DNA of 64,000 bases, taken from the NCBI GenBank assembly GCA_029935315.1, contig JAOZKN010000003.1:3430-67429 (forward strand), read 5' to 3'. The DNA comes from Desulfocapsa sp. GTDB lineage: Bacteria > Desulfobacterota > Desulfobulbia > Desulfobulbales > Desulfocapsaceae. Shown here piece after piece: positions 6 through 30,505 of the stretch (the stretch's first letter is position 1; every line of letters starts with the position of its first letter). The position numbers were made by a program, and so were the translations under genes. The notes beneath the pieces are model-generated. The model was not told the DNA's origin, searched no databases, and saw only the letters and a list, made by a program, of their open reading frames with translations.

Positions 6-854
6 ATGGCCAAAAAATCCAGACGTTTTCAGGTAACTGGAGGCTCCTCACCAATCATTCGCTTTTTCCTTGGCTTTTTTATTATCATTGGCTGCGCTGT
101 TTTTATAGGATGTCCGATCAAACTGATTCAACGGCTGGCCTGTGGCGATTTAACGGCTGTAGTAGCACTGCTTGGTCTCCTTTTTGGCGTTTGGCTGGGA
201 GCAAAATATATCCGGGCAGGCGTTGTTCTTGAACGGGTGAAAACCATGCCCCAATTAAATGGTTATATTTTCCCGGCCCTCGGAGTACTTCTTCTCGTTT
301 TTCTACTCCTCAGGCCATCGTTTATTCATCAGGGACAAACTGGGCCTGCAGCCCAACACGCACCCATTCTTATTTCACTTGCCATCAGTCTGTTTGTTGG
401 TGCCTTGTCCCAGCGTTCTGGACTCTGTATTACCGGCGGTATACGGAATTTTTTCTTATTTCGCGAAACAACTCTCCTCTTTGGAGTTATTACTTTTTTC
501 GTTTCAGCCCTGCTCCTCAGTCTGCTCACCGGACAATTTAATCTGGGTCTTCAGGGACAACCAGCCTCTCACATGGGCCATGGATGGACATTTCTGGCAA
601 TGACTCTCGTCGGACTGGCGTCCGTCATTATCGACGGCTGTCCCTTCAGACAGCTGGTTAAAGCCGGTCAGGGTGATGTGGATGCTGGGATTACCTGTTT
701 TGGAATGCTCACCGGTGCAGCCATGGTGATCACCTGGCTCTTACGATCAACTTCAGCCGGCCCGTCCTTTAACGGAAAAATTGCAGTGCTGACAGGTCTG
801 ATCTTTTGTTTTATTGTTGTGCTTAGTTATCGCAAGGGTAGCAGTATAACATAG
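6..854 (+). CDS. yedE: YedE/YeeE-family putative selenium/sulfur transporter, probably 5'-truncated by the window edge
   Basis: Multi-TM protein with repeated YeeE/YedE signatures IGCPIKLIQRLACGD and IDGCPFRQLVKAGQGD; the start 'RRFQVTGGSSPIIRF' resembles an internal part of full-length YedE, so the N-terminus probably lies upstream of base 1. Confidence 0.8.
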   Translation: MAKKSRRFQVTGGSSPIIRFFLGFFIIIGCAVFIGCPIKLIQRLACGDLTAVVALLGLLFGVWLGAKYIRAGVVLERVKTMPQLNGYIFPALGVLLLVFLLLRPSFIHQGQTGPAAQHAPILISLAISLFVGALSQRSGLCITGGIRNFFLFRETTLLFGVITFFVSALLLSLLTGQFNLGLQGQPASHMGHGWTFLAMTLVGLASVIIDGCPFRQLVKAGQGDVDAGITCFGMLTGAAMVITWLLRSTSAGPSFNGKIAVLTGLIFCFIVVLSYRKGSSIT

Positions 855-934: not shown

Positions 935-1489
935 ATGGGTTTTCTCAACAAGCTTGGTTTTGCAAAAAAAGATGAAGATAAAAAAGAATCAGTCACTCGT
1001 GGATTACTGGTATTTGCCCACCCCACAACAGTTATCTCAGTAGAAGAAATACTCCGCGATGAAGGATATACAATTCGCGTTGTCAGCCCCCCTCCCGCCT
1101 ACCGTACAGGATGTGACTTAAGTGTTGAATTCCCACTTGAAGCTGAAGCCGCTATTACCGAGCTACTCAATAGTGTCGGTATGGCTCCACTGGATGTCGT
1201 TCCCATCACCTCCAAAGGAATGGAGCCTTTACAATTTGTCCGTACTACCGTATATGATGATAGATATGTAATGATCAGAGCGGCAAACATGAAAATGACC
1301 GTTGACAAAGAAACGAAAACAATTGTAAATATTTCAGGCGGCGGTTGTCCCGATGTCCCTTTTCTGGCCACTGCCATGCTTGGTAAAACACTTAGTGATG
1401 CCCCCGATCCGGGAGAAGTTGGATTCTCACTCTGTGCCTATTCTTTAAATACGTCCCGGGAAGAACTCATCCGGATCCTAGGAGCTTAA
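935..1489 (+). CDS. DUF3343-containing protein
   Basis: N-terminal 'RGLLVFAHPTTVISVEEILRDEGYTIRVVSPPPAYRTGCDLSVEF' is DUF3343-like; C-terminal extension with GGGCPDVPFLA. Downstream of yedE. Confidence 0.7.
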   Translation: MGFLNKLGFAKKDEDKKESVTRGLLVFAHPTTVISVEEILRDEGYTIRVVSPPPAYRTGCDLSVEFPLEAEAAITELLNSVGMAPLDVVPITSKGMEPLQFVRTTVYDDRYVMIRAANMKMTVDKETKTIVNISGGGCPDVPFLATAMLGKTLSDAPDPGEVGFSLCAYSLNTSREELIRILGA

Positions 1490-1492
1490 TGC

Positions 1493-2356
1493 ATGTTATT
1501 GTTAGCCGGCTCAGTTCCAGTTGAAAAGCTGCCTCTGTTAATTGGTCCCATTGAAGTAACCGCCAATGGAATTAAGATCGATGGCCATGAGTTGCCCATG
1601 AACAGGGGCAACGAAGCTATGATGACTGCAGCCTGCCTTATCTGTCAGGAATATGGAATAGATGCCCCTGTTGGTATGGTAGCCGGTGATATTGGAAAGC
1701 GTGAGGGCAGTATTGCCATCTATAAACATCTTGCTGAGCACCTTCCTGAAATGGATGTCGAGGTCATGACGCTTCATTATGTCATGCCGGATCTTAAATT
1801 AAATAAAAAGATCCTGGAAACTGTCGACACCATGGAAAACAAACCTATAATGATTGCTGATGCCGGCAGTATGTATGTTGCCAAGGCTGGCGGCGACTCT
1901 CACTATTATACTGTTTTCACACCAGATCTTGGAGAAACTGCCTTCCTCGCCGATGAAAAAGCTGATCACCCCAGCTTCACCCGGGGTTTTATTTTTAACA
2001 TGGAAGAAGATGTCCCTGAATTAATCCGCAGGGCCTACGCGGGAAATAATGCTGCTCCCACCATGTTTGTTAAAGGCAAAATTGACTATATATGTCAAGA
2101 TGGCGAAATTGTCGATACCATCGATTCGCCCTTGGTTGCAACCATGGAACCTATTGGTGGAACTGGTGACTTAATCACCGGTATGATAAGTGGACTTATC
2201 TACGCTGGCCTGTCCCCCTTGCAAGCGTGTCGCATTGCCGGACGGGTAAACCGGGTAGCGGGTGAACTTGCACAACCGACTCCTGCAACCCAGATTGATA
2301 AAATTCTTCATTTTCTTCCTCAGGCACTTAACAAAGTACAGAAGCAATTAGGATAA
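1493..2356 (+). CDS. Ribokinase-superfamily / NAD(P)H-hydrate dehydratase-like protein
   Basis: C-terminal GGTGDLITGMISGLIYAGLSPLQAC matches the GTGD anion-hole motif of ribokinase/YjeF-C folds; starts 3 nt after the previous stop. Confidence 0.65.
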   Translation: MLLLAGSVPVEKLPLLIGPIEVTANGIKIDGHELPMNRGNEAMMTAACLICQEYGIDAPVGMVAGDIGKREGSIAIYKHLAEHLPEMDVEVMTLHYVMPDLKLNKKILETVDTMENKPIMIADAGSMYVAKAGGDSHYYTVFTPDLGETAFLADEKADHPSFTRGFIFNMEEDVPELIRRAYAGNNAAPTMFVKGKIDYICQDGEIVDTIDSPLVATMEPIGGTGDLITGMISGLIYAGLSPLQACRIAGRVNRVAGELAQPTPATQIDKILHFLPQALNKVQKQLG

Positions 2357-2359
2357 TTT

Positions 2360-2623
2360 ATGGCAACCATCATCATCCCCTTTCCGTTTCGCAAGCATAC
2401 GGATAGTCAGCGAGAAGTCACTGTCAGTGGCAACACACTCTCTGAAAGCCTGGAAGACCTGCTCAAACAACATTCAGGTTTACAGGTCATCCATGACCAA
2501 CCTGGTCTGCTCTCTATTTTTATCAACGGAAAAGCAGTGGCCGCAACGCCTGACGAGTGGAAAAACATCGCCATTACTGATAGTGACGAAATATCCCTGA
2601 TCATTCCCATTGCCGGAGGTTGA
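2360..2623 (+). CDS. ThiS/MoaD-like sulfur carrier protein
   Basis: 87 aa, beta-grasp-like pattern, ends in ...IPIAGG with a free C-terminal Gly-Gly; adjacent JAMM and E1 genes. Confidence 0.85.
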   Translation: MATIIIPFPFRKHTDSQREVTVSGNTLSESLEDLLKQHSGLQVIHDQPGLLSIFINGKAVAATPDEWKNIAITDSDEISLIIPIAGG

Positions 2624-2626
2624 CAA

Positions 2627-3181
2627 TTGAGCTGGCACCATGAGATTGAGCAGATTGTCCTTCCAGATGCCTTCTGGGGTGAGATTGTAAGCCATTGTAA
2701 AAGAAAGCTTGCTGGTGATTTTCTGCCGGGAGAAAGTGAAGTAAAAAGAGCCTATGGTATCCTTGCCGGCGTTCAGGAAGGGAAAGAACTCCGCGTAAAA
2801 CTTGTTCTTCCAGTGAAAAAAAATGCCAGGAATCAGGGTCCCTTGAAGACCTATATGGATAACATGATGACAGAGCATGCTGTGGCATCTACAACCCCTC
2901 TCAGTCAGCGGGGATGGATCACTGATCCTGAAGAGTTGATGGACTGTTTTCAACAGTGTGATAAACAGAATCTCCAGATTTTTGGTACGTATCACATGCA
3001 TATCGTGCCCTGGGAAGGCGATCCCATTCGTGATACCCCCACGGTACTTGATACCGTTCTTGCCAAAGACAGTAATCTTTTTTCCTTTATAATATCTATG
3101 GTTGATATGGAAAATCCCTCAATGAGGGCCTTTTACGAAGGCGCTCTTGAAAAACCGACCCCACTTATCATCAACTCCTGA
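2627..3181 (+). CDS. JAMM/JAB (Mov34/MPN) metalloprotease-like protein (TTG start)
   Basis: HMHIVPWEGDPIRD fits H-x-H-x10-D of JAMM proteases, with Pro instead of the usual Ser; next to the GG-terminal carrier. Confidence 0.7.
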   Translation: MSWHHEIEQIVLPDAFWGEIVSHCKRKLAGDFLPGESEVKRAYGILAGVQEGKELRVKLVLPVKKNARNQGPLKTYMDNMMTEHAVASTTPLSQRGWITDPEELMDCFQQCDKQNLQIFGTYHMHIVPWEGDPIRDTPTVLDTVLAKDSNLFSFIISMVDMENPSMRAFYEGALEKPTPLIINS

Positions 3182-3197
3182 AACCAGGCACATGTGA

Positions 3198-4400
3198 ATG
3201 ATAACCAGGCTCTCTGCAACATCTGACGTAATTGTCGAATATACTGACCCCGAGGAAGGATTTAAGGGATGGCTGGTGATAGACTCCCTTGCACATAACC
3301 TTTGTGCCGGTGGTCTCAGAGTACAAAAAGGACTCAGTCTGCAATGTGTTAAGGACCTTGCGGCCACCATGACTCTGAAAATGAGAATTGCCGGAATCAG
3401 AGCAGATGGTGCCAAAAGCGGGATTGATTACGACCCTTCAAGGCCAGGAAAAGAAGAGGCACTCTACCGCTTTATCCGGGCAATAAAACCATATATTCTC
3501 GAACGCTATTCCATGGGACCGGATATGAACACATCCATGCCCGAACTGGACGCCATCTGTTCCCGGCTTGGAATATCCTCCATCAAAACTGCTGTTGCCC
3601 ATACCCAAAACTACACGGCCGAAGAGTTCAAAGAAAGAATCGACTTGCTGTCCCAACCTATCAGCCACGCAAGCCTTGGTAAATTGCGTGCAGGATCAGG
3701 ACTTGCTGCCGCCTGTTTCGGAACCCTTGATTTCCTCGACATTCCGGCAAAAAAAGCCACCGTTATCATCCAGGGATTTGGTGGCCTTGCCGCTGGTGCT
3801 GCCTACTTCCTTCACAAGACCGGTGTAAATATAATTGGTGTAGCTGACCATGAAAAAAGCCTTATCCATCCCGGTGGTGAAGCTTTGGATATACCTTATT
3901 TACTCAAAAATTCGGTAAACGGACTCCTTCCCGACAATGCTCCTTCTGGTGAATATGGAAACAGCGAAGATATTTACAAGGTAGCATGTGATGTTTTTAT
4001 CCCTGCCGCCATCGAGGAGGCTGTCTGTGCCCAGGTGGCCAGGTCCATTCAGGTGCGTGCCATTACCTGCGGAGCGAATCTGGCTGTTGTTCCTGAAGCT
4101 CAGCAGCTTTTGCATGATCGTGGTATCCTCCTCATTCCTGATATGATAGCCGGATGCGGCGGGTCCTTATCCATGGAAGGCTTGTTTGCACCTGAGTCGT
4201 TGCCCACGGCCGATGAGGTTATTCAACATGTGGACACAAAAACCCGTGCCATTGTCATGAACATACTCCAGCGCAGCCGGGAGGAAGGACTTCTGCCACG
4301 GGAAATTGCCCTGCAAATTTGTTCTGAATCCAGGATCTATCCTGACAGCAGGCCTTATGGTTCTCTCACGAAAGGGAGTCATTCAACACCAAGCCTGTAA
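3198..4400 (+). CDS. Glu/Leu/Phe/Val dehydrogenase family protein
   Basis: MTLKMRIAGIRADGAKSGI (catalytic-lysine region) and GFGGLAAGAAYFL nucleotide-binding loop. Confidence 0.85.
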   Translation: MITRLSATSDVIVEYTDPEEGFKGWLVIDSLAHNLCAGGLRVQKGLSLQCVKDLAATMTLKMRIAGIRADGAKSGIDYDPSRPGKEEALYRFIRAIKPYILERYSMGPDMNTSMPELDAICSRLGISSIKTAVAHTQNYTAEEFKERIDLLSQPISHASLGKLRAGSGLAAACFGTLDFLDIPAKKATVIIQGFGGLAAGAAYFLHKTGVNIIGVADHEKSLIHPGGEALDIPYLLKNSVNGLLPDNAPSGEYGNSEDIYKVACDVFIPAAIEEAVCAQVARSIQVRAITCGANLAVVPEAQQLLHDRGILLIPDMIAGCGGSLSMEGLFAPESLPTADEVIQHVDTKTRAIVMNILQRSREEGLLPREIALQICSESRIYPDSRPYGSLTKGSHSTPSL

Positions 4401-4434
4401 ATTAAACACAACCCAATGTAAACACCCCGCGACT

Positions 4435-5811
4435 ATGCCTGTTCATCCTTTTGATTATACTATCAACCCCCACGTTTATAGCACGGCTGAATTTGAAGCC
4501 CTGTTTGATGAGAAAACCATGTTCCAACGCTGGCTTGATTTTGAAGCGGCCCTGGCAAAAGTGCAAGGTGCACATGGTGTTATTCCTCAGGAAGCAGCTC
4601 TTGAGATAGAAAAAAAAGCCAAACTCAAACACATTGACTTAGACAGTGTCCGCGAGGGATATGGTAAAAGCCGCAACTCTGTGGTGCCTTTGCTTGCCGG
4701 CCTGCGGCGTGCCTGTAACGCACCTCACGGTGAATATGTCCATTACGGGGCAACCACCCAGGATGTTATTGATACCGGTGAAATTTTAGCATTACGTGAT
4801 ACCCTCTCATTGGTGTACCGTGATTTAAGAGCCCTTGAGGATCTCTGTCTCCAGCTCGGTATCAAACATCGTGCAACTCCCATGGCTGCCAGATCGCATG
4901 GGCAACAGGCCCTGCCAACCACCTTCGGTCTGAAAGTTGCAGTCTGGGCCACAGAGATACGACGCCACATTAACAGAATCCGCCATCTTTATACCATCAT
5001 CAACAGTGGCCAACTAAGCGGCGCAGTCGGTACTTTTGCTGCCCTTGGCCCCCAGGGCATCGAAATTGCCAGAGAGACCATGGAAAACCTGGGTCTTGGC
5101 CATGATCCTCTTTCCTGGCACACCTCCCGCGACAATATTGCCGAACTGGCTTCTAACTTTGCCATTATGGCCATGACCCTGGCAAAAATTGCCAATGAAA
5201 TTTTCCAACTCCAGAAAACAGAAATTGGTGAATTACTTGAGCCTTCCATTGCAGGCGCCCTTGCCAGCAGCACAATGCCCCACAAACAGAATCCCGTCAT
5301 CTGTCAACGGGTCGTAGCACTTTCAAAACATATCAGAGGCCTTGCCGCGACCATTACAGAAAGCGTGGCCCATGAACATGAACGGGATCCTCGCAGTCTC
5401 TGGGCAGAATGGCTGGCAATTCCTCAACTTTGCATTTACAGCGGAAATGTTCTACACTCCATGGTAAATGTTCTGTCCGGTATAACCGTTCGCGAAGATC
5501 GAATGCTTGAAAATCTATACCGACAAAAGCACCTGATAACCACAGAATGGCTTCTTTTTCAATTGAGCAAGAGCCTGGGAAAAAGTAAATCACTGGACAA
5601 ACTGCATACACTCTCAGGGCAGGCTGAAACCAGTGGCATTTCCCTTAAAGAGGCTGTTCTTCAAGACGAAGAGATAGGCAGTTTATTCACAAGAGATGAT
5701 CTTGCCCCCCTTGACCAGCCTGAGCAATATACCGGCCAGGCGGTACAGATTGTCGATGGGACCCTGTCTGAGATTGCAAGGCTGCGAAAGACTGACCCAA
5801 AAACGTTATAG
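4435..5811 (+). CDS. Aspartase/fumarase-superfamily lyase (adenylosuccinate lyase-like), copy 1
   Basis: SSTMPHKQNPVICQ superfamily signature, HYGATTQDVIDT and ARSHGQQALPTTFG. The 4306 start in the ORF track overlaps the upstream gene; the in-frame ATG at 4435 is preferred. Confidence 0.85.
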   Translation: MPVHPFDYTINPHVYSTAEFEALFDEKTMFQRWLDFEAALAKVQGAHGVIPQEAALEIEKKAKLKHIDLDSVREGYGKSRNSVVPLLAGLRRACNAPHGEYVHYGATTQDVIDTGEILALRDTLSLVYRDLRALEDLCLQLGIKHRATPMAARSHGQQALPTTFGLKVAVWATEIRRHINRIRHLYTIINSGQLSGAVGTFAALGPQGIEIARETMENLGLGHDPLSWHTSRDNIAELASNFAIMAMTLAKIANEIFQLQKTEIGELLEPSIAGALASSTMPHKQNPVICQRVVALSKHIRGLAATITESVAHEHERDPRSLWAEWLAIPQLCIYSGNVLHSMVNVLSGITVREDRMLENLYRQKHLITTEWLLFQLSKSLGKSKSLDKLHTLSGQAETSGISLKEAVLQDEEIGSLFTRDDLAPLDQPEQYTGQAVQIVDGTLSEIARLRKTDPKTL

Positions 5812-5817
5812 GACATT

Positions 5818-7296
5818 ATGCAAAAGCAATCATCCCCCTGCAGCTGTAATATAAGTAGTCATATTGTTGACTCCGGTTTTTACAGCTCTGGATATACAAC
5901 ACCTGAGGCTCGTGAAATATTTTGCGATCTTCGTCGCTATCAACGATGGCTGGATGTTGAGGCAGCCCTGGCCATGGCCCAGGCAGAACTGGGTCTTATC
6001 CCTGTTCCAGCTGCCGAAAATATACGGGATAATGCAAGGATCATGACACTGGACCTTAATGCCATACGTGCCGGGCTCAAGGTAACCAGCCACTCACTTA
6101 TGCCGCTGCTCGATGCACTGAGTCACGTTTGCAACAAGGAAGCCGGACAATTTATTCATTTCGGTGCGACCACTCAGGATATCCAGGATACTGCCCAGAT
6201 CCTTGAGATACAGGATGTTTTTGAAATTATCGAACGTGATCTGACCATCGTCATTGAACAGGTGGCAGTCCTTGCTGAGAAACACATGAACCTGGTCACC
6301 ATTGGCCGAACCCATACCCAGCACGCCCTGCCCATGACCATGGGCCTGAAAATCGGGGTCTGGCTCGATGAGTTATGGCGAAATTACGAACGCCTGCAGG
6401 AACTGAAGGAACGGCTGCTGGTCAGCCAATTGTTCGGTGGGGTTGGAACCATGGACCCTTTTGGCGACAAGGCTTTTGAATTACTTGATCTTTTCTCAGA
6501 GAAAGTTGGCCTCCAGGCCCCGAACGTTGCCTGGCACGCCTCTCGTGACCGTATCACCGAATACCTGGTAACTCTGGCCATAATCTCCGGAACCCTTGCA
6601 AAAATTGCCGATGAGATTCGTTGCCTTGCCAGAAATGAAATCGGGGAAATGGAAGAGCCTTTCCAGATGGGAAAAATTGGCAGCAGCACCATGCCCCACA
6701 AGCGAAACCCTGAAATGTGTGAGCAGGTGGTTGTCCTTGCCAAATTAATTAACTCCAACGCCTCTCTGGGTTTTGACGGCATGCTCAACGAACACGAGCG
6801 AGACTATCGTTCCGTCCGTCTTGAATGGGTTACCATTACGGACAGCTCACTTTTTGCCTGCGGACAACTCTCTTTGATGAAAGATATCCTCAGTGACCTT
6901 CGGATTCATGAAGATAAGGTGGAAAAGAATGTAAATATGGCAGCCCCCCTGATCTCCACCGAGGCACTGATGTTTTTTCTCGGCTTAAAAATCGGCAAAC
7001 AGATCGCCCACACCCTTATTTATGAAACATCCATGGAGTCCATTGAAAATGCAGAGCCCTTCCTTGACATCCTTATGAACCGGCCCGAAATGGCAGACCA
7101 TTTTACCAGGGAAGAAGTACAGCAGGTTATGCTGCCTAAAAACCACATCGGCATGTCAGAAAAACTCACAAAACGCACCATTGATTACGTCAGAGGAAAA
7201 CTCGCCGAGCAAAACAAACACGGCGGTGTCAAGAAAGTCTGTCCACTGATGTCAAAGAATGGTATCTGTTGTCAATCCTTGTCAGAGACGTCGTAA
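5818..7296 (+). CDS. Aspartase/fumarase-superfamily lyase (adenylosuccinate lyase-like), copy 2
   Basis: GSSTMPHKRNPEMCE, HFGATTQDIQDT, GRTHTQHALPMTMG; divergent paralogue of the preceding gene. Confidence 0.85.
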   Translation: MQKQSSPCSCNISSHIVDSGFYSSGYTTPEAREIFCDLRRYQRWLDVEAALAMAQAELGLIPVPAAENIRDNARIMTLDLNAIRAGLKVTSHSLMPLLDALSHVCNKEAGQFIHFGATTQDIQDTAQILEIQDVFEIIERDLTIVIEQVAVLAEKHMNLVTIGRTHTQHALPMTMGLKIGVWLDELWRNYERLQELKERLLVSQLFGGVGTMDPFGDKAFELLDLFSEKVGLQAPNVAWHASRDRITEYLVTLAIISGTLAKIADEIRCLARNEIGEMEEPFQMGKIGSSTMPHKRNPEMCEQVVVLAKLINSNASLGFDGMLNEHERDYRSVRLEWVTITDSSLFACGQLSLMKDILSDLRIHEDKVEKNVNMAAPLISTEALMFFLGLKIGKQIAHTLIYETSMESIENAEPFLDILMNRPEMADHFTREEVQQVMLPKNHIGMSEKLTKRTIDYVRGKLAEQNKHGGVKKVCPLMSKNGICCQSLSETS

Positions 7297-7334
7297 AAAT
7301 ATCCTCCACCGTCACCCAAAAAAGAGAACACAAT

Positions 7335-8060
7335 ATGTTTGATTATGAACGTTACAAACGACAGCTGCTGATTGATGGATGGGGAACAGAGACTCAGGAA
7401 AAATTGCAAACCAGTAAGGTTTTCATTGCTGGTGCCGGTGGCCTTGGTTGCCCTGTTGCCCTGAACTTAACCACTGCCGGAGTGGGCAATATACGAGTCT
7501 GTGATGCAGATGTGGTTGACATCAGTAATCTAAACCGCCAGTTTCTTCACCCTGAGAAAAATATCGGTGTTGAAAAAACAACCTCAGCGGTGCAAACGCT
7601 CTCCAACCTAAATTCCGCTGTTCATTTTACCACTCTTACCACCAAAATCACCGAAGACAATGTCGATGAACTTGTTGCTGACGCCGATATTATCCTCGAT
7701 TGCCTCGATAATTTTGAAGCACGCTATGCCCTCAACGCCTGTGCCGTCCGCCAGGGTATCCCCCTGATCCATGCAGCTGTCTGGGGACTGGAAGGAAGAG
7801 TGACTGTCTTTACCCCACCCACCACCCCTTGCCTTTCCTGCATCTTTCCCGTTGCATCGAAACAACAGGAAACAATACCTGTCCTTGGAACCATAACCTG
7901 CGCTACCGGAAGCATGCAGGCCATGGAAGCAATCAAATACCTGGGCGGGATGTCCCCTTCCCTGCAAAACAAGATGCTGATTATGGATTTTTCTGCCATG
8001 CATTTCCAGACACTTGAAATCTCAAAAAACAGGGACTGTCCAATCTGTTCACATCTGTAA
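7335..8060 (+). CDS. ThiF/MoeB/HesA-family E1-like adenylyltransferase
   Basis: GAGGLGCPVALNLTTAGVG, DISNLNRQFLH, CLSC...CPIC Zn-binding cysteine pairs. ATG at 7335 (MFDYERYKRQLLIDGWG) preferred over the 7269 start. Confidence 0.88.
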   Translation: MFDYERYKRQLLIDGWGTETQEKLQTSKVFIAGAGGLGCPVALNLTTAGVGNIRVCDADVVDISNLNRQFLHPEKNIGVEKTTSAVQTLSNLNSAVHFTTLTTKITEDNVDELVADADIILDCLDNFEARYALNACAVRQGIPLIHAAVWGLEGRVTVFTPPTTPCLSCIFPVASKQQETIPVLGTITCATGSMQAMEAIKYLGGMSPSLQNKMLIMDFSAMHFQTLEISKNRDCPICSHL

Positions 8061-8244: not shown

Positions 8245-9795
8245 ATGAAACCATCAAAAACCCTCTACATAGCCGGACATATCCTCCTGCTTCTTTTTAT
8301 CACCTCTGATGTCATGGCCGAAAACTGCCTCGAAGCACGTGAATGGTTCGAAGAAGGACTGAGTCTTGCCGACAATTCAGAGCAGGAAGTATCCTATTAC
8401 CAGCAGGCAATCCACCTCTGCCATGAATTTGTAGCTGCCCACAACAGGCTGGGCGAGGTGTATAAAAATCAGAAAAAATATAACTTAAGTATCCAGGCAT
8501 TCAAACAAGCCAGAATCCAGGCTTTGTCAAGTGACCGCTTTGCAACACGTTCCGACTCCCGGACACTATTTCTTGAATCCGCTGTCAGCCTTGGCGAAAT
8601 CTACAGAATACAGGGAGAATATGAACCTGCAGCAGAAGAATTCACAAAAGCCTTAGAGCTGGATCCTGACTCACGTGCAGCCAAAAACAACCTGCAATAC
8701 GTCTACAAACGACTCCACCATTACGATGATGTTCTCCCCTCCAATAACAATTTGCTGAACAATGCCATCTTCACCAGAATACCGGGTCTGACCCTTCCGG
8801 ACAGTACTTATTCTTTTGACTTCCAATGGAAACACTGGGACCAGGAATCCACCCCGGTTAACGTAGACATGCTGCACCCGGATGAGATTGTCATCCTCCC
8901 GGACAATCAACACTCTACCATTGCCGGATTAGTTGAGGATGGTTTTTTGACCGCTTCCGCTCCGGAAGAATTGTCATCAACTATAAATGTTTTTGCGTTA
9001 TCCATGCGTTACGGGATCACCAACGATATCACTCTTGGCCTGGTTCCAAAGGTACTTTCTCAATCGCTTGATATTAGCTTGAGCGGTTTTAACGAACTTG
9101 ACATTCCAACAAATACAGAATTGGGTGATACGGAACTACTCCTCAAATACCACCTCTGGGGAAAACAGAAACAGCATATTTCTTTCTATACTCTGCTTAA
9201 CATTCCCACCGGAAAAGAGATAAAAGTCACTGGAAAAGAGCCCTTAATTACCCGTGTTGCGGTGCAACACGATGACGGCAGTGTGGGAGTAGAAACATTT
9301 GAGTTTGATTTTGTCCGCTACGTGCCTTTTGGCTCAGAAAGTTTTGATATTACTCCAGGGCTTGCTCTCACCATTGGGTTGGATCCATTTGTCTTCCATA
9401 GCAACATACAATATAAATTCACCGACGGAATCCTTATCGGGGATGAGTTCCGTTTTAATATTGCAACCATTTACAGTATGAATCCAAGTGTCAATGCAAC
9501 CATGGAAATGAACTTCCGCTGGCGGGGAGAGGCGAGAAGACGATTCCATACTGTCCTCTTTAAATTCCAGCCTGATGCCATAATGAGGGGTGGAGTCACA
9601 GCCGGACCAGTCGCCGTTGAATCATTCTATACTGAAGAAGGAGGGAGCACCCTCTTCCTCTCTCCCGGCCTGCAATTCACTGTGGCTGATGGTATCAGAA
9701 TTGAAGCAGGTATACAGATTCCGGTTATTAAACAAACCCCAGGATGGACAGAAAGCATTGTCTTCCAACTGGGCATTACTTTTTTATCCTTCTAG
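8245..9795 (+). CDS. TPR-containing outer-membrane beta-barrel (transporter/porin-like) protein
   Basis: Signal peptide; TPR pattern (EYEPAAEEFTKALELDPDSRAAKNNL); C-terminal half of alternating amphipathic strands ending ...FQLGITFLSF (C-terminal aromatic). Confidence 0.7.
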   Translation: MKPSKTLYIAGHILLLLFITSDVMAENCLEAREWFEEGLSLADNSEQEVSYYQQAIHLCHEFVAAHNRLGEVYKNQKKYNLSIQAFKQARIQALSSDRFATRSDSRTLFLESAVSLGEIYRIQGEYEPAAEEFTKALELDPDSRAAKNNLQYVYKRLHHYDDVLPSNNNLLNNAIFTRIPGLTLPDSTYSFDFQWKHWDQESTPVNVDMLHPDEIVILPDNQHSTIAGLVEDGFLTASAPEELSSTINVFALSMRYGITNDITLGLVPKVLSQSLDISLSGFNELDIPTNTELGDTELLLKYHLWGKQKQHISFYTLLNIPTGKEIKVTGKEPLITRVAVQHDDGSVGVETFEFDFVRYVPFGSESFDITPGLALTIGLDPFVFHSNIQYKFTDGILIGDEFRFNIATIYSMNPSVNATMEMNFRWRGEARRRFHTVLFKFQPDAIMRGGVTAGPVAVESFYTEEGGSTLFLSPGLQFTVADGIRIEAGIQIPVIKQTPGWTESIVFQLGITFLSF

Positions 9796-9806
9796 GCCAA
9801 TTGCAT

Positions 9807-11123
9807 ATGAATATTTCGTTGATCTCCAGCATAAAACGGCCTGAAGCCGTTCGTCAGCAGTGGCCTTTTCCCTGCCTGACGCTGTGGATCATCCTTTCCT
9901 GTTGTGCAATAACAGGCTGCAGCAATGATATTTTTAACAGCCCCCGGATAGCTCTGGATACTGTAAAAAAGAATCCCATCCCGGAAGCACACGTTATTAT
10001 TACCCAGAACAACATCTACCAGAACAATCGTTCCGGCATCAGAACACGAGGCAATATGCCGATACATATTCAGAAAAACAATATTTATCAGAATGGCCAG
10101 GGTGGAATTAACCTCAACTACTCTGCCCGGGTACGCATCACAGACTGCACTCTTTCCCAAAACAAAAACAGTGGCATAAGTGCCGACAATGCCATACACC
10201 TTCAGATTAAAAGAAACAAAATTCTCCAGAATGAGCGTGGAGGCATACGGATACGATCGGCTCAACAGCTTACGCCTACAAACACCAGCGTAACTATTGA
10301 AAACAACTCAGTATTTCTCAACAACAATGGCGGCATCCACACCGTTTCAGACACTTCCCTTCCAATTCGTCTTCATATTTCAGGAAACAGTATATACCGT
10401 AACCAGAAAACCGGAATTAGAATTGAAGACAACGTTCATATGACTGCGTTCAATAACGAAATTTATAAAAACAGCACCTCAGGTATCGCAGCCTACAGCA
10501 ATAAAGCTGTTTCACCGATGCTTGATGCCTATCAAAATAAAATATTCTTCAACCAGGGCTCCGGAATTCTTATCCATAGCGGCATTACAGGGCAGATAGG
10601 ACTCAGTAATAATCTTGTATTCAATAACTATCGTGGCGGAATAGCCTGCGGCCTGTGGGGTGAATCCAGTAATGAACAAATTGACGTGGAGATATTTCAC
10701 AACACCATCGTTGCCAATGGCAGTGATGCTGAGGGAGCCGGTATCCGCAATGACAGCATTGGCAATGTAAAGATCAAAAACAATATTATTGCCTACAATT
10801 TCACCACCGGTATCATGACTGACAAGTGCTGGGGAAGCTCTTACAACCTGCTCTTTGCCAATGGCGAAACCTCCACAACAAGTGAACTGTCCACAAGTCC
10901 TCTCTCCTTCCTCATCGATAAAAAGCAATATGCAGGCTGCCAGACCTGGCAGCGTGGAGATGTTCTTGATGTACCGGAATTTACCAATCCAGACCAATAT
11001 AATTTCACATTGCAAATGCATTCACCGGCCATTGGTGCTGCCGCGCCGATCAACTCAGCATACTTTCACGATACTCCGTCTGACAATCTCGGGGCGAATC
11101 TCTTCCTTATCCCTGCAGAATGA
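9807..11123 (+). CDS. Right-handed parallel beta-helix lipoprotein
   Basis: Lipobox-like CCAITGC near the N-terminus; many N-x-I-x-x-N-x-x-x-G-I coils. In-frame ATG at 9807 preferred over 9744. Confidence 0.78.
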   Translation: MNISLISSIKRPEAVRQQWPFPCLTLWIILSCCAITGCSNDIFNSPRIALDTVKKNPIPEAHVIITQNNIYQNNRSGIRTRGNMPIHIQKNNIYQNGQGGINLNYSARVRITDCTLSQNKNSGISADNAIHLQIKRNKILQNERGGIRIRSAQQLTPTNTSVTIENNSVFLNNNGGIHTVSDTSLPIRLHISGNSIYRNQKTGIRIEDNVHMTAFNNEIYKNSTSGIAAYSNKAVSPMLDAYQNKIFFNQGSGILIHSGITGQIGLSNNLVFNNYRGGIACGLWGESSNEQIDVEIFHNTIVANGSDAEGAGIRNDSIGNVKIKNNIIAYNFTTGIMTDKCWGSSYNLLFANGETSTTSELSTSPLSFLIDKKQYAGCQTWQRGDVLDVPEFTNPDQYNFTLQMHSPAIGAAAPINSAYFHDTPSDNLGANLFLIPAE

Positions 11124-12043
11124 AATCCAAGTCCTCCATACATCCCGCTAAAGAAATTGCGAAGAACAGCCCATCTCCTGTTCTCAGGCAGCTTCTTGTT
11201 CTTTTCTTTGCTGTGGCGTATTCTGCCTTTCTCTTCCCCGGCAACGCGCTGACAGCCGAGCTGAATCCACCTGAAAACAACTACCCCGAAATAAGCAAAG
11301 ATATGCCGACAGAGGAGTGCATGCAGTGTCACCCCTCCATAGCAACACTTCTCCGTACAAAAGGCGCCATGCATGCTCATGTGGAATGCAGACAGTGTCA
11401 TTTGCAGGTCCACGCCTACATTACAGGCAAGACCAACTACGCAGACATCCTGCCCAAATGCGACCGCTGTCATGCCCATCCCCACGGGGAGGAACTGACC
11501 CAATGCAGCAGCTGTCACCAGGAAGCGCATGCTCCACTTGAGATTCCTGCCAATCGTGCCCTTTCCCAGGGCTGTTACGTCTGCCACCCTGAGTTAGACA
11601 AAGATATAAAGATCTTCCCCACCAAACATACCTACCTGTACTGTACCTCGTGTCACCACACAAGACATGGCCGAAAACCTGTCTGCCAGGAGTGTCATCA
11701 GCCTCATGCTGGCAGAATAGGAGCATCTGGTCTTATAACTGATAGTACAAACCCGCTGGATCAATGTATTTCATGCCACCCTCCGCATAAAGCACTGAAA
11801 GTTACTTATCCTGATGATACCGAGAACACGGTATGCGCTTTCTGTCACCACAAGGCGGATGAAATGCTGCGGCGGAAGTATACAAAACATACCGCCCTCC
11901 TCTGCATCGCATGCCACCCCGGCCAGCACAAGACCATCAAACGATGCAAAGAGTGTCATGGGACGCCACACCCAGAGGATATGTTGAAAAAGTTCAGTTC
12001 CTGTGGTGCCTGCCACGGGGTTGCCCATAGCGTGGTACGATAA
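11120..12043 (+). CDS. Multiheme c-type cytochrome, 12 CxxCH motifs
   Basis: Direct count of CxxCH: CMQCH, CRQCH, CDRCH, CSSCH, CYVCH, CTSCH, CQECH, CISCH, CAFCH, CIACH, CKECH, CGACH; N-terminal signal/TM segment. Confidence 0.93.
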   Translation: MKSKSSIHPAKEIAKNSPSPVLRQLLVLFFAVAYSAFLFPGNALTAELNPPENNYPEISKDMPTEECMQCHPSIATLLRTKGAMHAHVECRQCHLQVHAYITGKTNYADILPKCDRCHAHPHGEELTQCSSCHQEAHAPLEIPANRALSQGCYVCHPELDKDIKIFPTKHTYLYCTSCHHTRHGRKPVCQECHQPHAGRIGASGLITDSTNPLDQCISCHPPHKALKVTYPDDTENTVCAFCHHKADEMLRRKYTKHTALLCIACHPGQHKTIKRCKECHGTPHPEDMLKKFSSCGACHGVAHSVVR

Positions 12044-13294
12044 ATGCCCCGGGCACGAAACCGATGCAGCACCCTGTGCGCACTGTTCCTCCTGGCAACA
12101 CTGGCATGTTTCGTGGTCCCCGCAACGGCAGGCAACTATGTTGAAAAACAGGAACATTATCCCACATCCATACCTGATACCGGCCAGGAGCTCTGCTATA
12201 ACACAGTAAAAGAGATTCCCTGTCCAGGTCCTGGTGAACCATTTTACGGCCAGGATGCAAATTATTCTATTCATACACCGGTTTATACCACCAGCAATCA
12301 AGGTGCTACTGCTACCGTCACCGATCATATTACCGGCCTGACCTGGCAGCGCAGACCAGACCCTCTGCTCAAGACATGGAGTGAGGCCATTGATTATACA
12401 GGGGAACTCAACTTATCCGGCTTTAATGACTGGCGACTGCCAAGCAAACAGGAACTGCAAACTATTTTTTCCTTTGGCAAGGCACCGGGACAGCTGCAGC
12501 AAGTAGTCCACGAGACACAAACACCTGGACAGAACAAAGAAAGGAGCTGCGCCTGGACCATCAGCAACCAGGTCTTTCCCAGTCTTGAAGCGAAAACCAT
12601 CTGCCTGCCTGACAAACAGGGTGCAATCAGCAGTAAATATAAAAAACAATATGTATACGCTGTACGTGGTCCGTCCTATATGACAGGCCATCTCAGAGAC
12701 AATGGCAACCAGACCATAACGGATCAATACACTGGACTTATGTGGCAAAAGAGAGAAATACTCCCCCAGAAATGGGGAAATGCACTTGCCTACTGTGAAG
12801 AACTGCAACTGGCTGGCTTTGATGACTGGCGTCTGCCAACACTGAAGGAACTTATGACTCTGGTCAACGAAGACCATAACACCGCCTCCATTGATACAAG
12901 TTTTTTCCCTGCAACCCGTACTGCAGCGTACTGGACCAGCACCACCTTCTCAGGACACCCTGGATTTGCCTGGTATATACGCTTTGATACCGGACTTGAA
13001 TACAACGGAGGATACAAAGGGCGTCGTTATTTCGTGCGGGCAGTACGAAGCGGTGGTGCCATAGCAGAAGCAGCACAAAAAACAGTGCTGAAGCCGTTGC
13101 CTGTAGTGGAAGAGCAGCCTGAAGAGATAGTCCCGGTGGCCACCAAAACAGTTACAGTCGAAGATCCCGTCGAAGCAACAATAGCATCCGAGCCTGTCAA
13201 GGCTGAAGAGCCCACCGAAACAACGCCACCCGATGCCAGCGAAATGGATATTTTTGAACCATACCCTCTGGACTATCAACTGTATGAAGAATAA
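12044..13294 (+). CDS. DUF1566 domain protein (two repeats), secreted
   Basis: ITGLTWQRR...LSGFNDWRLPSKQELQTIF and YTGLMWQKR...LAGFDDWRLPTLKELMTLV; signal peptide; Pro/Glu/Thr-rich C-terminus. Confidence 0.8.
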   Translation: MPRARNRCSTLCALFLLATLACFVVPATAGNYVEKQEHYPTSIPDTGQELCYNTVKEIPCPGPGEPFYGQDANYSIHTPVYTTSNQGATATVTDHITGLTWQRRPDPLLKTWSEAIDYTGELNLSGFNDWRLPSKQELQTIFSFGKAPGQLQQVVHETQTPGQNKERSCAWTISNQVFPSLEAKTICLPDKQGAISSKYKKQYVYAVRGPSYMTGHLRDNGNQTITDQYTGLMWQKREILPQKWGNALAYCEELQLAGFDDWRLPTLKELMTLVNEDHNTASIDTSFFPATRTAAYWTSTTFSGHPGFAWYIRFDTGLEYNGGYKGRRYFVRAVRSGGAIAEAAQKTVLKPLPVVEEQPEEIVPVATKTVTVEDPVEATIASEPVKAEEPTETTPPDASEMDIFEPYPLDYQLYEE

Positions 13295-13457: not shown

Positions 13458-13889
13458 TTATGGGGTTTTCTTAGACGCTGCCTCCTGGGCGGCATCCAAA
13501 AAATCCTGTTTCAGTAACTTGAAATCAGCACCATGTCCGCTATCTATTCGCAGAACAATACTTAAATCATCCTGCACTGGTGAAACAAACTGAAAAAGCC
13601 CCTCTTTATCAGTTACGCCTTCAAGTAATTTCTCACCATCTTTATCCACAACAAATATTTTGCCATTTTGCACCTTGTTTCCACCCATGAAAAAAGCTTC
13701 CACAAAGACAGTATCATTTTCAACATAGCACCAAAGGACTGTTGCATGGGCGTAGGCAATGGAGGCAGCAAACAATAAGACTACAAGTCCCGCAGCCAGA
13801 CTCAGTTTACCTTTACCCATGGCAGCAAAACGAAATACAGATTTACCAATAGACATACAACTCTCCTGCGATGTGGAAAATCTTTTCAT
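13458..13889 (-). CDS. Small secreted/membrane-anchored protein with carboxypeptidase-regulatory-like fold, metal ABC-linked
   Basis: N-terminal TM/signal; 'GKIFVVDKDGEKLLEGVTDKEGLFQF' beta-sandwich repeat; starts 1 nt after the permease stop. Confidence 0.55.
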   Translation of the reverse strand: MKRFSTSQESCMSIGKSVFRFAAMGKGKLSLAAGLVVLLFAASIAYAHATVLWCYVENDTVFVEAFFMGGNKVQNGKIFVVDKDGEKLLEGVTDKEGLFQFVSPVQDDLSIVLRIDSGHGADFKLLKQDFLDAAQEAASKKTP

Positions 13890-14783
13890 TTATATTTCTC
13901 CCTGGCTCAGGCCACCCTTAGAGAAGAGCGGACGGAGCAACAACGAGCCATAAAACAGAATGCTGGAGACAAGAACAATAACGGCTCCACTTGGAATTGG
14001 CAGAAAACCCGACAGCACCATACCGAAAGTCGTACTGATAGTTGAAAACAAAACACTGACCCAAACAAACTGACGGAGATTTTTCACAATATTCTGTGCC
14101 CCGGCAGCCGGTACTACAACAAGCACCAGTACCAGTAAGGCACCAATCAGTTTCAGGCTGGCCACCACAACCACAGTCATCAAACAGACAAAAACATATT
14201 CAAGAAAAACAGGAGAGAGACCACGCGCCTTGGCAAGAATCGGATTAAAACCACCAAGCATAACCTTATTAAAATTGAAGGCGAAAAGTATTCCAACCAC
14301 CAGGGAGGCAACGGCCAGAGTTATCAGATCGGTATCATTTAAAGTTATCAAGCTGCCAAAAAGAATCCCCTCGACCTGGTGCACATTAAACTGACTGGTG
14401 ACGACAATCATCAGGATAATGCCAACACCGAGCACCTGAGCCAGAACAACACCAATAATAGTATCATTCGATAACCGTGAGCGATTTTTTACGAATGTCA
14501 TAACCAGGGCGACAATCAGACAGAAACCGTACAAACCGGCGTAGGTCCCTTCAATGGGTTCACCAAAGAGGAGGCCGATGGCCACTCCTGACATGGCTGC
14601 ATTCCCAATGGTTTGGGTGAAAAAAGAGAGCTTCTTCGTGACTACGACGGTTCCCATGGCTCCAAGCAGGGGCCCGATAATGATGGCGGCAAGCAGACCG
14701 CGAATCATAAATGTATGCTCAAAGATGGACGGCAGATATCCGGAAACTGCCCAACCACTTATTAAATCATAAATATATTCCAT
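13890..14783 (-). CDS. Metal ABC transporter permease (ZnuB/MntB-type, ABC-3 family)
   Basis: Multi-TM ABC-3 features (ALRGLLAAIIIGPLLGAMGTVVVTKKLSFFTQTIGNAAMSGVAIG-like, LLVLVLVVVPAAGA). Confidence 0.88.
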   Translation of the reverse strand: MEYIYDLISGWAVSGYLPSIFEHTFMIRGLLAAIIIGPLLGAMGTVVVTKKLSFFTQTIGNAAMSGVAIGLLFGEPIEGTYAGLYGFCLIVALVMTFVKNRSRLSNDTIIGVVLAQVLGVGIILMIVVTSQFNVHQVEGILFGSLITLNDTDLITLAVASLVVGILFAFNFNKVMLGGFNPILAKARGLSPVFLEYVFVCLMTVVVVASLKLIGALLVLVLVVVPAAGAQNIVKNLRQFVWVSVLFSTISTTFGMVLSGFLPIPSGAVIVLVSSILFYGSLLLRPLFSKGGLSQGEI

Positions 14784-14889
14784 AGCACACCATAAATTGA
14801 CAACATCGTAAAACGACGATTGCGTTTTCGGTAGCTTTCTGCATAAACTTTACAGAGAAGCTACGGCGCAATCCTCTCAGGAGAACTTG

Positions 14890-15594
14890 TTATGTTACAT
14901 TAGTAACCAGCGCAGACAGACTGAGATCATCGGGAGAACCATCGTAGGTCACAGTTCGATTGATTGCTGTCACTCGATCAGCAATACGGAGAATCGTCTG
15001 CATATCATGACTCACCAATAATATAGAATGACCATGCTCCTGCTTTAACTGAATAAGCATCTTCTCAAAATGACGTGCTCCAACCTCATCCACATTACTC
15101 GCCGGTTCATCCAGAAGCAGAAGTTCAGGCTTTGGTACCAAAGCCTGCGCCAGCAGCACTCGACGAAATTCCCCACCTGACAGGTAGCCGACACCACGAT
15201 CAATAAGGTGAGCACATTCGGTAACTTTCAATATCTCAAGGATTTCCTCGCGCATGGGCCTCCGACGTCCCAGAAACAGAGGAAATTTACGTAACATAAG
15301 GTATAAAAAATCAAAGACAGTGATGGGCACAGAATGATCAAATTCCAGAAGTTGTGGAACATAGCCAATTCGTCCGTTATCACTAAAACGGAAGTTAATG
15401 CTGCCCTTGTGGGGCATACCACCCATAATACTTCGAATCAGGGTTGTTTTTCCGGCACCATTCGGTCCGATCAGGGCATGAATGTGACCATGCCTCACAT
15501 CCATATTGACATCATTGAGAATTTTGTTCCCGCCAAGAGTAAGAGACAAGTCCCTAATCTCAAGCAGGTTATCACTGACGGGTTCTGTTATCAT
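14890..15594 (-). CDS. Metal ABC transporter ATP-binding protein (ZnuC-type)
   Basis: Walker A GPNGAGKTTL, LSGGEFRRVLLAQAL, Walker B LLLLDEPASNVD. Confidence 0.92.
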   Translation of the reverse strand: MITEPVSDNLLEIRDLSLTLGGNKILNDVNMDVRHGHIHALIGPNGAGKTTLIRSIMGGMPHKGSINFRFSDNGRIGYVPQLLEFDHSVPITVFDFLYLMLRKFPLFLGRRRPMREEILEILKVTECAHLIDRGVGYLSGGEFRRVLLAQALVPKPELLLLDEPASNVDEVGARHFEKMLIQLKQEHGHSILLVSHDMQTILRIADRVTAINRTVTYDGSPDDLSLSALVTNVT

Positions 15595-16520
15595 TTTACG
15601 CCTGAGGCCGTAGCAAGAGCCTGAACGATGCCAGCCATATTTTGTTTCATATCCTCTTCAAAAAGCCCGGCATCGTATGTTCCCGTGGAGACATGGGAAA
15701 GACTGTATATACGACAACCAGTCTCCTGAAAGATGATATCAACATATCGTTTTTCATAATCAAGTTCAGTGAAAAGTATATTCACTTTTGCTCTTTTGAT
15801 ACGTTTGATAGTATCCTGTAACTGCCGCGCACTGGGCTCTATTCCATGCCTGGGCTGTACCACCGCTGACACCTTAATCCCCAGCTCCTGAAAAAGATAA
15901 GCATAGCCATCATGCACAGTGGCGATGCGCAGAGTAGCAGTATCGATACTATCAATTTCTGCAAGGGTTGCAGCCAGCATCTTACGCAGTTTTTTCACAT
16001 ATGCCCGGCTGTTCTTTTTGTACACAGACGCCTGATCAGGACACAATTTACCGAGTTCTGCGGCAATCATCTGTATCTGTTGTACGGCAACAGTGATCCC
16101 AAGATAGGTATGGCTGTTATACGAAACTTTTTTTTCACCTTCTCCCTCAAAATCATAATGCGTCGCATAAGAGGGGATCAAGGGCAAGCCCATACTGGTG
16201 TTAATGATCTTCAGCCCTTTCAGGTCAGTGGCCTTCAGCATTGGATCCACAAACTCATCGTGCCCGAGTCCGTTAATAATTAAAGCATCCAGATTCTGTA
16301 AATGCTTAAGATCTGCGGGCATTGGCTGATAGGTATGGGGATCAGAACCGGGTGGGATCAGAGGCATTACTCTTGCGTTCCCCCTAACAATATTCTCAAC
16401 CCATGAGTAATAGGGGTGAAGGGAAACACCAATGGTCAAATCACAGCCACTCGTTGCAGACAGGCCTGCAGAAGGTACTGTCAGTAACAAGCTGAGAAAA
16501 AAGAAAACGATTTTATTCAT
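15591..16520 (-). CDS. Metal ABC transporter substrate-binding protein (ZnuA-type)
   Basis: SLHPYYSWVENIVRGNARVMPLIPPGSDPHTYQPMPADLKHLQNLDALIINGLGHDEFV; signal peptide from ATG at 16520. Confidence 0.88.
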   Translation of the reverse strand: MNKIVFFFLSLLLTVPSAGLSATSGCDLTIGVSLHPYYSWVENIVRGNARVMPLIPPGSDPHTYQPMPADLKHLQNLDALIINGLGHDEFVDPMLKATDLKGLKIINTSMGLPLIPSYATHYDFEGEGEKKVSYNSHTYLGITVAVQQIQMIAAELGKLCPDQASVYKKNSRAYVKKLRKMLAATLAEIDSIDTATLRIATVHDGYAYLFQELGIKVSAVVQPRHGIEPSARQLQDTIKRIKRAKVNILFTELDYEKRYVDIIFQETGCRIYSLSHVSTGTYDAGLFEEDMKQNMAGIVQALATASGVK

Positions 16521-16630
16521 TATTATTATGCTCTTTATATGAGTTATCGTTATTGGTATAAGCTCTTTCTGGCATCGTATGTATCTCCTGAAGCCATCTC
16601 CGTTCCAGTTTTTCAGGAACGGATCACCCT

Positions 16631-17401
16631 TCACTGACCGGGTTCTTCAGAAAGCTCCATCTCTGTGTTTCCCGCCATGGAATTTTCTGCAACAATCCAT
16701 TTCCAGCCACGCTCTGCAAGATCTTCTCCCGGGTAATCAACAGTTTGTGGATTGACCCAGATTTGCGCAGTAAAACGCATGAGCGTATTGTTATCCTTCC
16801 CTAAATGGGGGTGGGGATGCTGCTCACTCTGCAGATCAATAATACGAAGAATAAAGCTGTTTTCCAGGGGATCTCCTCCCTGTTGTTTGGCCGCAGCAGC
16901 GCCGACATTTATTCCGTAATAATCAACCCAGCCATCACTCTGGTATCGTTTCCAGACAAAACCCCGCAGATCAACAGGTAAAAAGATATTTGCAAAAGGT
17001 GGCAAGACCTCTTCTTGCAAGGTGTCAATACCTGGCCAGCTTCCGTTCTCTTCACGCAGGGTTAGCACATCGGCAACAACACCCAGTAATGAACGATAGA
17101 GGGTGGGGGCCTGGCTTTTTAAGTGCAGATTTTTAATCTGGTAGGGGCGTAACTGCACACCGGACGTGCTTGAATTCATCTGGGTAAAGCGTATCCCCAT
17201 GAGTAACACAATCAGTGCAATCACTCCGGCCAGAGCCAGAGCCTCACGTCGGGCACCCTTGGGCTGAACAAGAAATACCCTGCATTCATTCTGGGGAGGG
17301 GTGTTTTCCATGGGATCAAACTCTCCGTTCACTACACATTTCACATTTTTTAAGGTTGTGCTGAAAAAAACAATCCGCAAAACAACTTCTGCGCTAAGCA
17401 A
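16631..17401 (-). CDS. Single-TM protein linked to the metal ABC operon (possibly DUF6162-like)
   Basis: TM LALAGVIALIVLLMGIRF followed by an extracytoplasmic domain; directly upstream of the znuA-like gene. Family name is a recollection, not a search result. Confidence 0.5.
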   Translation of the reverse strand: MLSAEVVLRIVFFSTTLKNVKCVVNGEFDPMENTPPQNECRVFLVQPKGARREALALAGVIALIVLLMGIRFTQMNSSTSGVQLRPYQIKNLHLKSQAPTLYRSLLGVVADVLTLREENGSWPGIDTLQEEVLPPFANIFLPVDLRGFVWKRYQSDGWVDYYGINVGAAAAKQQGGDPLENSFILRIIDLQSEQHPHPHLGKDNNTLMRFTAQIWVNPQTVDYPGEDLAERGWKWIVAENSMAGNTEMELSEEPGQ

Positions 17402-20600: not shown

Positions 20601-20707
20601 ACTTGCAGCTCAGCAGCAACACCCAATTCACCGAAGACAGTAAGGGAAAGAAACAGACAGGTAACAGCAAGGGGAGTGTTCAAATTTCTTTTTTTCATAT
20701 CATTCAT
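17690..20707 (-). CDS. Large secreted parallel beta-helix protein with central PKD/REJ-like domains
   Basis: Two blocks of NN.I..N..GI coils flanking 'LDPDGDMLTYQWTLTQTPEGSAA' and 'KDPEGAPLSYQWTMIFKPAGSQA' PKD-like repeats; signal peptide. Confidence 0.8.
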   Translation of the reverse strand: MNDMKKRNLNTPLAVTCLFLSLTVFGELGVAAELQVPAQHSSISKALAAAVSGDTIKVAGGTYFERIKMKEGVILEGGWSADFSRRDITTLETIIDGIKAKGPVVHCADGAVLDGFTIIHGTLLQNADTSEGSGIYCNQSSPTLQNNTVRDNEPSGIFCSTSSALIVNNRIYANEQAGVYLQKGSALTIKGNQIWDNGFSAIGSGKKPVSTFEIVENILHSNKRSGINVQTATGSIVNNLIYDNARAGIRSVPMPVEIINNTIDGNDWAGILIEDPTAVPTIKNNIVSHNIDAGIRGAGKGYDHNLLFANGNGGDCDPHYLWCVKPQFGGYEDETSYQKTRNIIADPLFKDRAGHDYHLQARSPAIDSGDRKPEFNDVHFPSSLGSERNDMGFYGGPLAKAEERTGNSSPQAVIGAVPQAFVGSRAVLDGKESLDPDGDMLTYQWTLTQTPEGSAAKLRKADRVKTAFKIDKAGDYIASLLVTDSQGVASELQTVQIHVPMNRKPVATIAEVISQMKAGDTLTVYGNASKDPEGAPLSYQWTMIFKPAGSQASLSSSSGDSSSFHLDVDGSYTVQLVVNDGELDSAAVAINISTRKPVTAGIRRVPEEYPTIQAALDAASPGDDIIVQEGRYAELLVIDKSVNLIGKNWPIIDGGRQKGNKNTIAVFYLGDRAGKIEGFVITGGGSGELGHGINIWDSSPDIFNNRITGNNHGMGIHGSPALTNKAKVHGNLIYNNDVGIGNGKDSMAHIYNNRVYENNIVGIGCRGKARPRIRANYIYNNRLGVGAREVASPVIEGNHVFNNFDGIVISPLSTIKRFAFDDIIIKNNLVVRNDHLGVNVSSFNLSNVFITNNTIDSNNPGKIKIRGGGLVLGYPQPAGFTAVVENNIISNNLVGGLVNYIGPDLFQEPGAIIQNKHNNLWNNTVNYLDTQAGASALSSAPAFDGNGSADITSYFDAAVKQDVTDPGYQYQKNDFAELPEEFAVVSAVPADVPVESAVPANLPAE

Positions 20708-20719
20708 TATTGCCAGGTA

Positions 20720-24182: not shown

Positions 24183-24208
24183 TGCGTGAAAAAGGGAGAA
24201 AAAGACCA

Positions 24209-30501: not shown

Positions 30502-30505
30502 CTCT

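Follow-up and report, generated by a model that had tools for sequence, protein, structure and literature searches.

Cable bacteria conduct electrons over centimetres along fibres by means of a nickel-sulfur cofactor that is new to biology, and the question of which genes could make such a cofactor is raised by a locus in Desulfocapsa sp., a member of the same order, Desulfobulbales. The cofactor of the cable fibres resembles nickel bis(1,2-dithiolene) (NiBiD), and knowledge of the genes behind its synthesis is scant (PMC10959288); the biosynthesis genes of this nickel dithiolene-like compound are unassigned in cable bacteria (PMC10959288, PMC11247825), no gene having been attributed to the process (PMC8238962, PMC10959288, PMC11247825). 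The window analysed here is a stretch of 64,000 nucleotides (contig JAOZKN010000003.1 of assembly GCA_029935315.1, positions 3,430 to 67,429), and the system in question is a run of eight genes at window positions 935-8060, together with its conserved neighbours. An initial annotation of the window had presented this run as a candidate protein-thiocarboxylate pathway. The reading favoured here, to which we give about an even chance, is that the products of the locus synthesize a nickel-sulfur cofactor and assemble it in the envelope, the most likely compound being a NiBiD-type nickel dithiolene. The locus is a good candidate for such a pathway because its core occurs in all sampled cable bacteria, because it combines a sulfur relay with lyases of C-S type and a NosD-type periplasmic protein, and because related lineages encode an ortholog of the cable bacterial nickel exporter RcnA; the proposal thus draws on gene content, linkage, and conserved residues. 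If true, biology would have two routes to a metal dithiolene, this one and that of molybdopterin. A short list of conserved enzymes with a matching nickel exporter would also make the question of synthesis testable by reconstitution, and indicates other hosts in which it could be studied.

The eight-gene run and its proteins

Gene calls and domain searches bear out the eight co-directional genes initially described: all are intact, lie on the + strand, and are separated by gaps of 3-38 nt. The first (935..1489) encodes a Se_S_carrier (DUF3343) protein with an additional C-terminal half (PF11823, 54.7 bits), for which the family alignment shows invariant cysteines in the motifs RTGCD, GGGCPDVP, and SLCAYS, and whose AlphaFold model (mean predicted local distance difference test score, pLDDT, 77.7) gave no Foldseek match at E <= 0.001. 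It is followed by a kinase related to the C-terminal domain of YjeF and to NNRD (Carb_kinase; 1493..2356; PF01256, 38.8 bits), with a GGTGD motif that is present in the window protein and in every homologue listed, and by a ThiS-like carrier (2360..2623; PF02597, 31.5 bits) that terminates in IPIAGG, the final GG being found in 6/6 members listed. The run continues with a JAMM/JAB-fold protein (2627..3181, TTG start), an ELFV-type amino-acid dehydrogenase (3198..4400; PF00208/PF02812), two lyases of the aspartase/fumarase superfamily, namely lyase A (approximately 4435..5811; PF00206) and lyase B (5818..7296), and a ThiF/MoeB-family E1 (approximately 7335..8060; PF00899, 247 bits) that carries a GAGGLG motif and two CxxC motifs. 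The 3' part of a YedE-type sulfur/selenium membrane transporter (6..854, +) belongs to the same run. YedE is the only protein of the run to clear its equivalog cut-off (TIGR04112, 302 bits against 200, model positions 66-336); all others fall short of theirs, the E1 scoring below the cut-offs of both MoeB and ThiF.

The models closest in score to the two lyases, which share 35% identity, are those of the C-S-forming XcbD and of PRK08937. Lyase A reaches 429 bits and lyase B 459 bits with the XcbD model NF052536 (cut-off 600), and 305 and 319 bits, respectively, with the purB model TIGR00928 (cut-off 326.2). The loop typical of the fumarase superfamily is kept in both window copies (SSTMPHKQN in lyase A, SSTMPHKRN in lyase B) and in most homologues. 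In the dehydrogenase family, the catalytic Lys (GAK) and Asp (GPD) are kept in all 38 members, and alignment to 2tmg places an Ala, again in 38/38, where glutamate dehydrogenase has the Lys that binds the side-chain carboxylate of its substrate; because of this replacement, glutamate is unlikely to be the substrate.

The assignment of the fourth gene to the JAMM fold, which the initial annotation had also made, was upheld by profile and structure. The single sequence matches no Pfam family; a profile built from 27 family members matches 2kks at 7.7e-07 and JAMM1 weakly, and the AlphaFold model (pLDDT 74.5) is matched by Foldseek to 2kks (4.9e-08), to a bacterial Ubl-deubiquitinase complex, and to JAMM1. 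The metal ligands H123, H125, and D136 are invariant (27/27), and the position of the catalytic Glu, set by alignment to 2kks, is occupied by Arg or Lys in all 27 members. A role of this protein as a protease is doubtful on account of that replacement.

Conservation of the locus and its presence in cable bacteria

The distribution of the locus was followed in 196 genomes of Desulfobulbales, with cable bacteria represented by 12 genomes of Ca. Electrothrix and Ca. Electronema. Two groups were distinguished by the JAMM protein: clade A, at least 56% identical to the window sequence, unites the window and its near relatives with the cable bacteria, while clade B, at 42-50%, comprises further Desulfobulbales. 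Cluster-type kinase (at least 70% identity) and JAMM (at least 56%) occur in the same 19/196 genomes, the one discordance being a 72%-complete draft. The conservation of the neighbourhood exceeds chance, and it extends far beyond close relatives, the gene order recurring in several families and in a second order of the phylum, in which 9/49 genomes carry the JAMM gene. The most complete order was seen in two genomes of another family (G174 and G083), where genes for an OpuAC-like protein, NicO, a TPR protein, a PhnD-like protein, a NosD-like protein, a second TPR protein, and YedE precede the core of Se_S_carrier, kinase, ThiS, JAMM, dehydrogenase, lyase A, lyase B, and E1; genes for a TPR/outer-membrane-type protein, a beta-helix protein, a 12-haem cytochrome, and an Lcl_C protein follow, as they do in the window. 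Similar runs are found in G183, of the window's genus, in family f3, in genus g61 of family f12, in one metagenome-assembled genome of Desulfocapsa, and in the second order. In clade A, YedE stands directly upstream of the Se_S_carrier gene. The clade B order is JAMM, envelope genes, dehydrogenase, lyase A, lyase B, often NicO, and then OpuAC-like, TPR, and PhnD-like genes. A search of open-licence PMC papers found no description of the cluster.

Kinase, JAMM, and dehydrogenase are each encoded in 12/12 cable genomes, the NosD-like protein in 11/11 of those tested, and lyase A and lyase B in 10/11 each, the gaps being drafts. Six genomes without JAMM (G011, G066, G072, G032, G012, G041) gave no match to the NosD-like protein or to the lyases at the thresholds used. 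The Electrothrix locus is broken up into blocks: one with a DASS-type transporter and the OpuAC-like, TPR, PhnD-like, NosD-like, TPR, and YedE genes, one with Se_S_carrier and kinase, one with JAMM, dehydrogenase, and lyase A, and one with lyase B. The annotation of the cable and clade B clusters shows no ThiS, and the cluster-type E1, which is restricted to non-cable clade A genomes and the second order, is absent from cable bacteria and clade B, where the best match is a generic MoeB of 34-38% identity. Because of this absence, the ThiS/E1 part looks like an accessory, an optional supply of sulfur. The idea of a trait limited to cable bacteria was rejected, as homologous clusters occur in many other lineages.

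In gene trees, the cable bacteria form one group within clade A, near the sequences of the window, Desulfocapsa, and g61, while G183 groups with family f3 and not with its own genus; transfer of locus genes between lineages is therefore likely. Most of the sampled genomes from the window's genus gave no kinase or JAMM match at the thresholds used.

Three further observations concern the surroundings of these clusters. An anion transporter of DASS/CitMHS type lies 5' of the OpuAC-like gene (L129:5871-7259, with matching sites in other Electrothrix and second-order loci), and could bring in a dicarboxylate or a sulfur-oxyanion substrate. Giant multihaem cytochromes, of up to 2785 aa in the part seen, flank clade B clusters (L074:8645-16999, L076, L083, L072). 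A separate yedE-TusA-Se_S_carrier-kinase operon, a paralogous sulfur or selenium relay, is present in other Desulfobulbales (L025-L034), at least some of them without JAMM, its kinase being 41-47% identical.

The link to nickel

RcnA has been published as unique to cable bacteria within the order, and was proposed to serve the nickel cofactor (PMC11247825). In the present sample, NicO/RcnA was found in 36/196 genomes of the order, distributed as 29/44 of those with JAMM versus 7/152 of those without (Fisher p ~3e-17, a descriptive figure that ignores relatedness). In about ten clade B genomes, the gene immediately follows lyase B; in G174 and G083, it is flanked by the OpuAC-like gene on one side and a TPR gene on the other. 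Over a core of 237 positions, cable RcnA shares 55-66% identity with the NicO of clade B clusters and 66-69% with that of G182, the NicO proteins of G174 and G083 being more distant (48-51%). Judged by these identities, cable RcnA is orthologous to the NicO encoded inside related clusters. Other nickel-related genes stand close to the locus in further genomes: a NikL homologue adjoins the Lcl_C gene in G588, and in G183 and G068 a DUF4198 gene comes after the beta-helix genes.

A proposed pathway to a nickel-sulfur cofactor

The gene set suggests a sequence of steps that would lead from sulfur uptake to a periplasmic metal complex. YedE and the Se_S_carrier protein, with the kinase, would import and relay sulfur, and in some lineages the sulfur would be provided by ThiS and E1, in the form of a carrier thiocarboxylate. 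The dehydrogenase and the two lyases could then generate an unsaturated, sulfur-bearing ligand through interconversion of amino and keto acids and C-S addition or elimination, while the JAMM-fold protein may act on a carrier or hold a metal. NicO/RcnA would deliver nickel to the periplasm. Assembly or insertion of the complex there could fall to the NosD-like beta-helix protein and the two binding-protein-like proteins, in the fashion of NosD, which is thought to assemble or insert the copper-sulfur site of nitrous oxide reductase. In hosts other than cable bacteria, the complex could be handed to the linked beta-helix and multihaem proteins. The parallel with NosDFY/NosL, which serve the maturation of the CuZ site of that enzyme, lies in a periplasmic NosD-type beta-helix protein beside functions of metal and sulfur delivery; the differences are that nickel would take the place of copper, and that no NosF/NosY pair is seen in the run. 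With NiBiD itself (PMC8238962, PMC10959288, PMC11247825), the system would share nickel, sulfur ligands, and a periplasmic location, and the core of the locus is encoded in all sampled cable genomes, in addition to the RcnA ortholog encoded inside related clusters. The component parts belong to known families; their combination fits no known pathway among those tested, and the system as read here would be new.

Several points weigh against the assignment to a nickel cofactor. The case is one of guilt by association only, and we know of no enzyme of the locus that makes a dithiolene. NicO has no match in the window's own genome and was undetected in 3/12 cable genomes; where present in cable bacteria, it is only loosely linked to lyase B in some genomes (approximately 17-20 kb apart). 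The metal transporter in the window (13890..16634, described below) could carry zinc or manganese. The locus is also present in lineages for which the cofactor is not known: many genomes with JAMM are not those of cable bacteria, and no such cofactor has been reported in them. Ca. E. yaqonensis YB6 is reported to have NiBiD and to lack rcnA (PMC12093952).

Alternative explanations

The initial annotation invoked the CysO/CysM/Mec+ and HcyS pathways, in which a GG-terminal carrier, an E1, and a JAMM-fold protein are encoded in one operon and work with a pyridoxal-phosphate (PLP) synthase. By this analogy, E1 would activate ThiS, the lyases and dehydrogenase would build the product, a small thiol or sulfur-containing amino acid, on the carrier or off it, and the JAMM protein would release it, the nickel genes being neighbours for some other reason. 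The presence of ThiS, E1, and JAMM in a single run, the proximity of the lyases to XcbD and PRK08937, and the conservation across several families are all in keeping with this scheme. However, cable bacteria and clade B retain JAMM, dehydrogenase, and lyases without the cluster-type E1, the carrier is likewise missing from many holders of the cluster, the JAMM protein has lost its catalytic Glu throughout the family, and, as was already pointed out at the outset, no PLP enzyme (CysM- or MetY-like) is encoded in the run, nor in its conserved neighbours; the linkage to NicO, NosD-like, and beta-helix genes would also go unexplained. The lyases, the dehydrogenase, and the nickel genes are further differences from the CysO and HcyS systems. 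The scheme is rather unlikely as a whole: what stands of it is a dedicated gene set for sulfur trafficking and C-S-type chemistry, and what finds no support is the CysO/HcyS analogy as its core. Were the product an ordinary thiol made through ThiS, the system would be less novel, a variant of known pathways. The bacterial coenzyme M enzymes XcbC and XcbD offer another partial likeness, being two lyases of the fumarase superfamily of which one forms a C-S bond, and lyases A and B score high on XcbD; yet both remain under its cut-off and far under that of XcbC, and the run has no phosphosulfolactate or PLP genes.

Homeostasis of sulfur or metal in the periplasm, in support of extracellular electron transfer by sulfur-cycling bacteria, is an unlikely alternative in which a soluble thiol chelator or redox shuttle would be exported with nickel or zinc and used by the beta-helix and multihaem proteins. 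It would account for the giant multihaem cytochromes beside clade B clusters, the 12-haem proteins beside those of clade A, and the binding-protein-like and DASS-type transporters, but it predicts neither the universal retention in cable bacteria nor the NosD-like protein. Very unlikely is a selenium pathway, where YedE, Se_S_carrier, and the kinase would traffic selenium into a selenium-containing metabolite or a labile cofactor: YedE is an equivalog match, and both YedE and DUF3343 have been proposed as selenium genes, although the same work leaves DUF3343 open for sulfur (PMC5322559), and a SelD above the cut-off is absent from all four Electronema genomes and from G085, all of them genomes that retain genes of the locus. 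Ordinary genes of thiamine or molybdopterin synthesis next to enzymes of purine and amino-acid metabolism, already disfavoured in the initial annotation, are hardly tenable. Matches to ThiS, ThiF/MoeB, PurB-like, and glutamate-dehydrogenase-like proteins exist at the family level, but this identity was rejected on the grounds of scores below the equivalog cut-offs for all proteins other than YedE, of three further ThiF-family genes in the genome, and of the lack of ThiG and MoaE in the run, to which is added the conserved clustering with unrelated envelope genes. The YTD cluster of sulfur disproportionators, which also joins a YedE-related transporter to sulfur-relay proteins in Desulfobulbales, was likewise rejected, as its proteins differ: it has TusA and DsrEFH-like proteins, and lacks JAMM, dehydrogenase, lyases, and NicO (PMC13047784).

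Flanking genes in the window

The locus reaches well past 935-8060 on both sides; the initial limits had overlooked the nickel exporter and the NosD-like, YedE, PhnD-like, beta-helix, and cytochrome genes that belong to it or to its counterparts. The window has just the 3' part of YedE because a run of N, flanked by a repeat, breaks up the gene (contig positions approximately 3064-3434), and this may reflect a scaffold join or sequence that was withheld; the 5' part lies across it, before the window, preceded on the contig by TPR, PhnD-like, NosD-like, and TPR genes. Downstream of E1 follow, on the + strand, a TPR plus outer-membrane-type protein (8245..9795), a linked accessory that stands after E1 also in G174, G083, and the second order, and of which cable bacteria have no close homologue; a right-handed beta-helix protein of the NosD/Beta_helix type, syntenic and of uncertain start codon (9744..11123; PF13229, PF05048); a multihaem cytochrome with 12 CxxCH motifs (11120..12043), syntenic in G174, G083, and the second order; and a syntenic Lcl_C (DUF1566) protein, another linked accessory (12044..13294; PF07603).

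On the - strand lie a weak match to the NikL family of nickel/cobalt transport subunits (13458..13889; NF058648, 83.6 bits versus a cut-off of 100), an ABC-3/ZnuA-type metal ABC transporter (13890..16634; PF00950, PF00005, PF01297), and three beta-helix proteins of 1005, 371, and 410 aa (17690..23024; PF13229/PF05048), whose homologues are encoded directly 3' of E1 in G183 and G068, and two of which recur in G085. Two more cytochromes, recognized by 12 CxxCH motifs each (23394..25180, +), are putative members of the locus. Approximately 20 kb off the locus, inspection by eye revealed a TusA-type sulfur-relay protein beside an iron-sulfur protein resembling heterodisulfide reductase (29356-31123, -). 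Further along, two more proteins noted by eye, one subtilisin-like and secreted, the other an RHS/YD-repeat protein of 1421 aa, are encoded on the + strand at 46407-48254 and 50972-55237.

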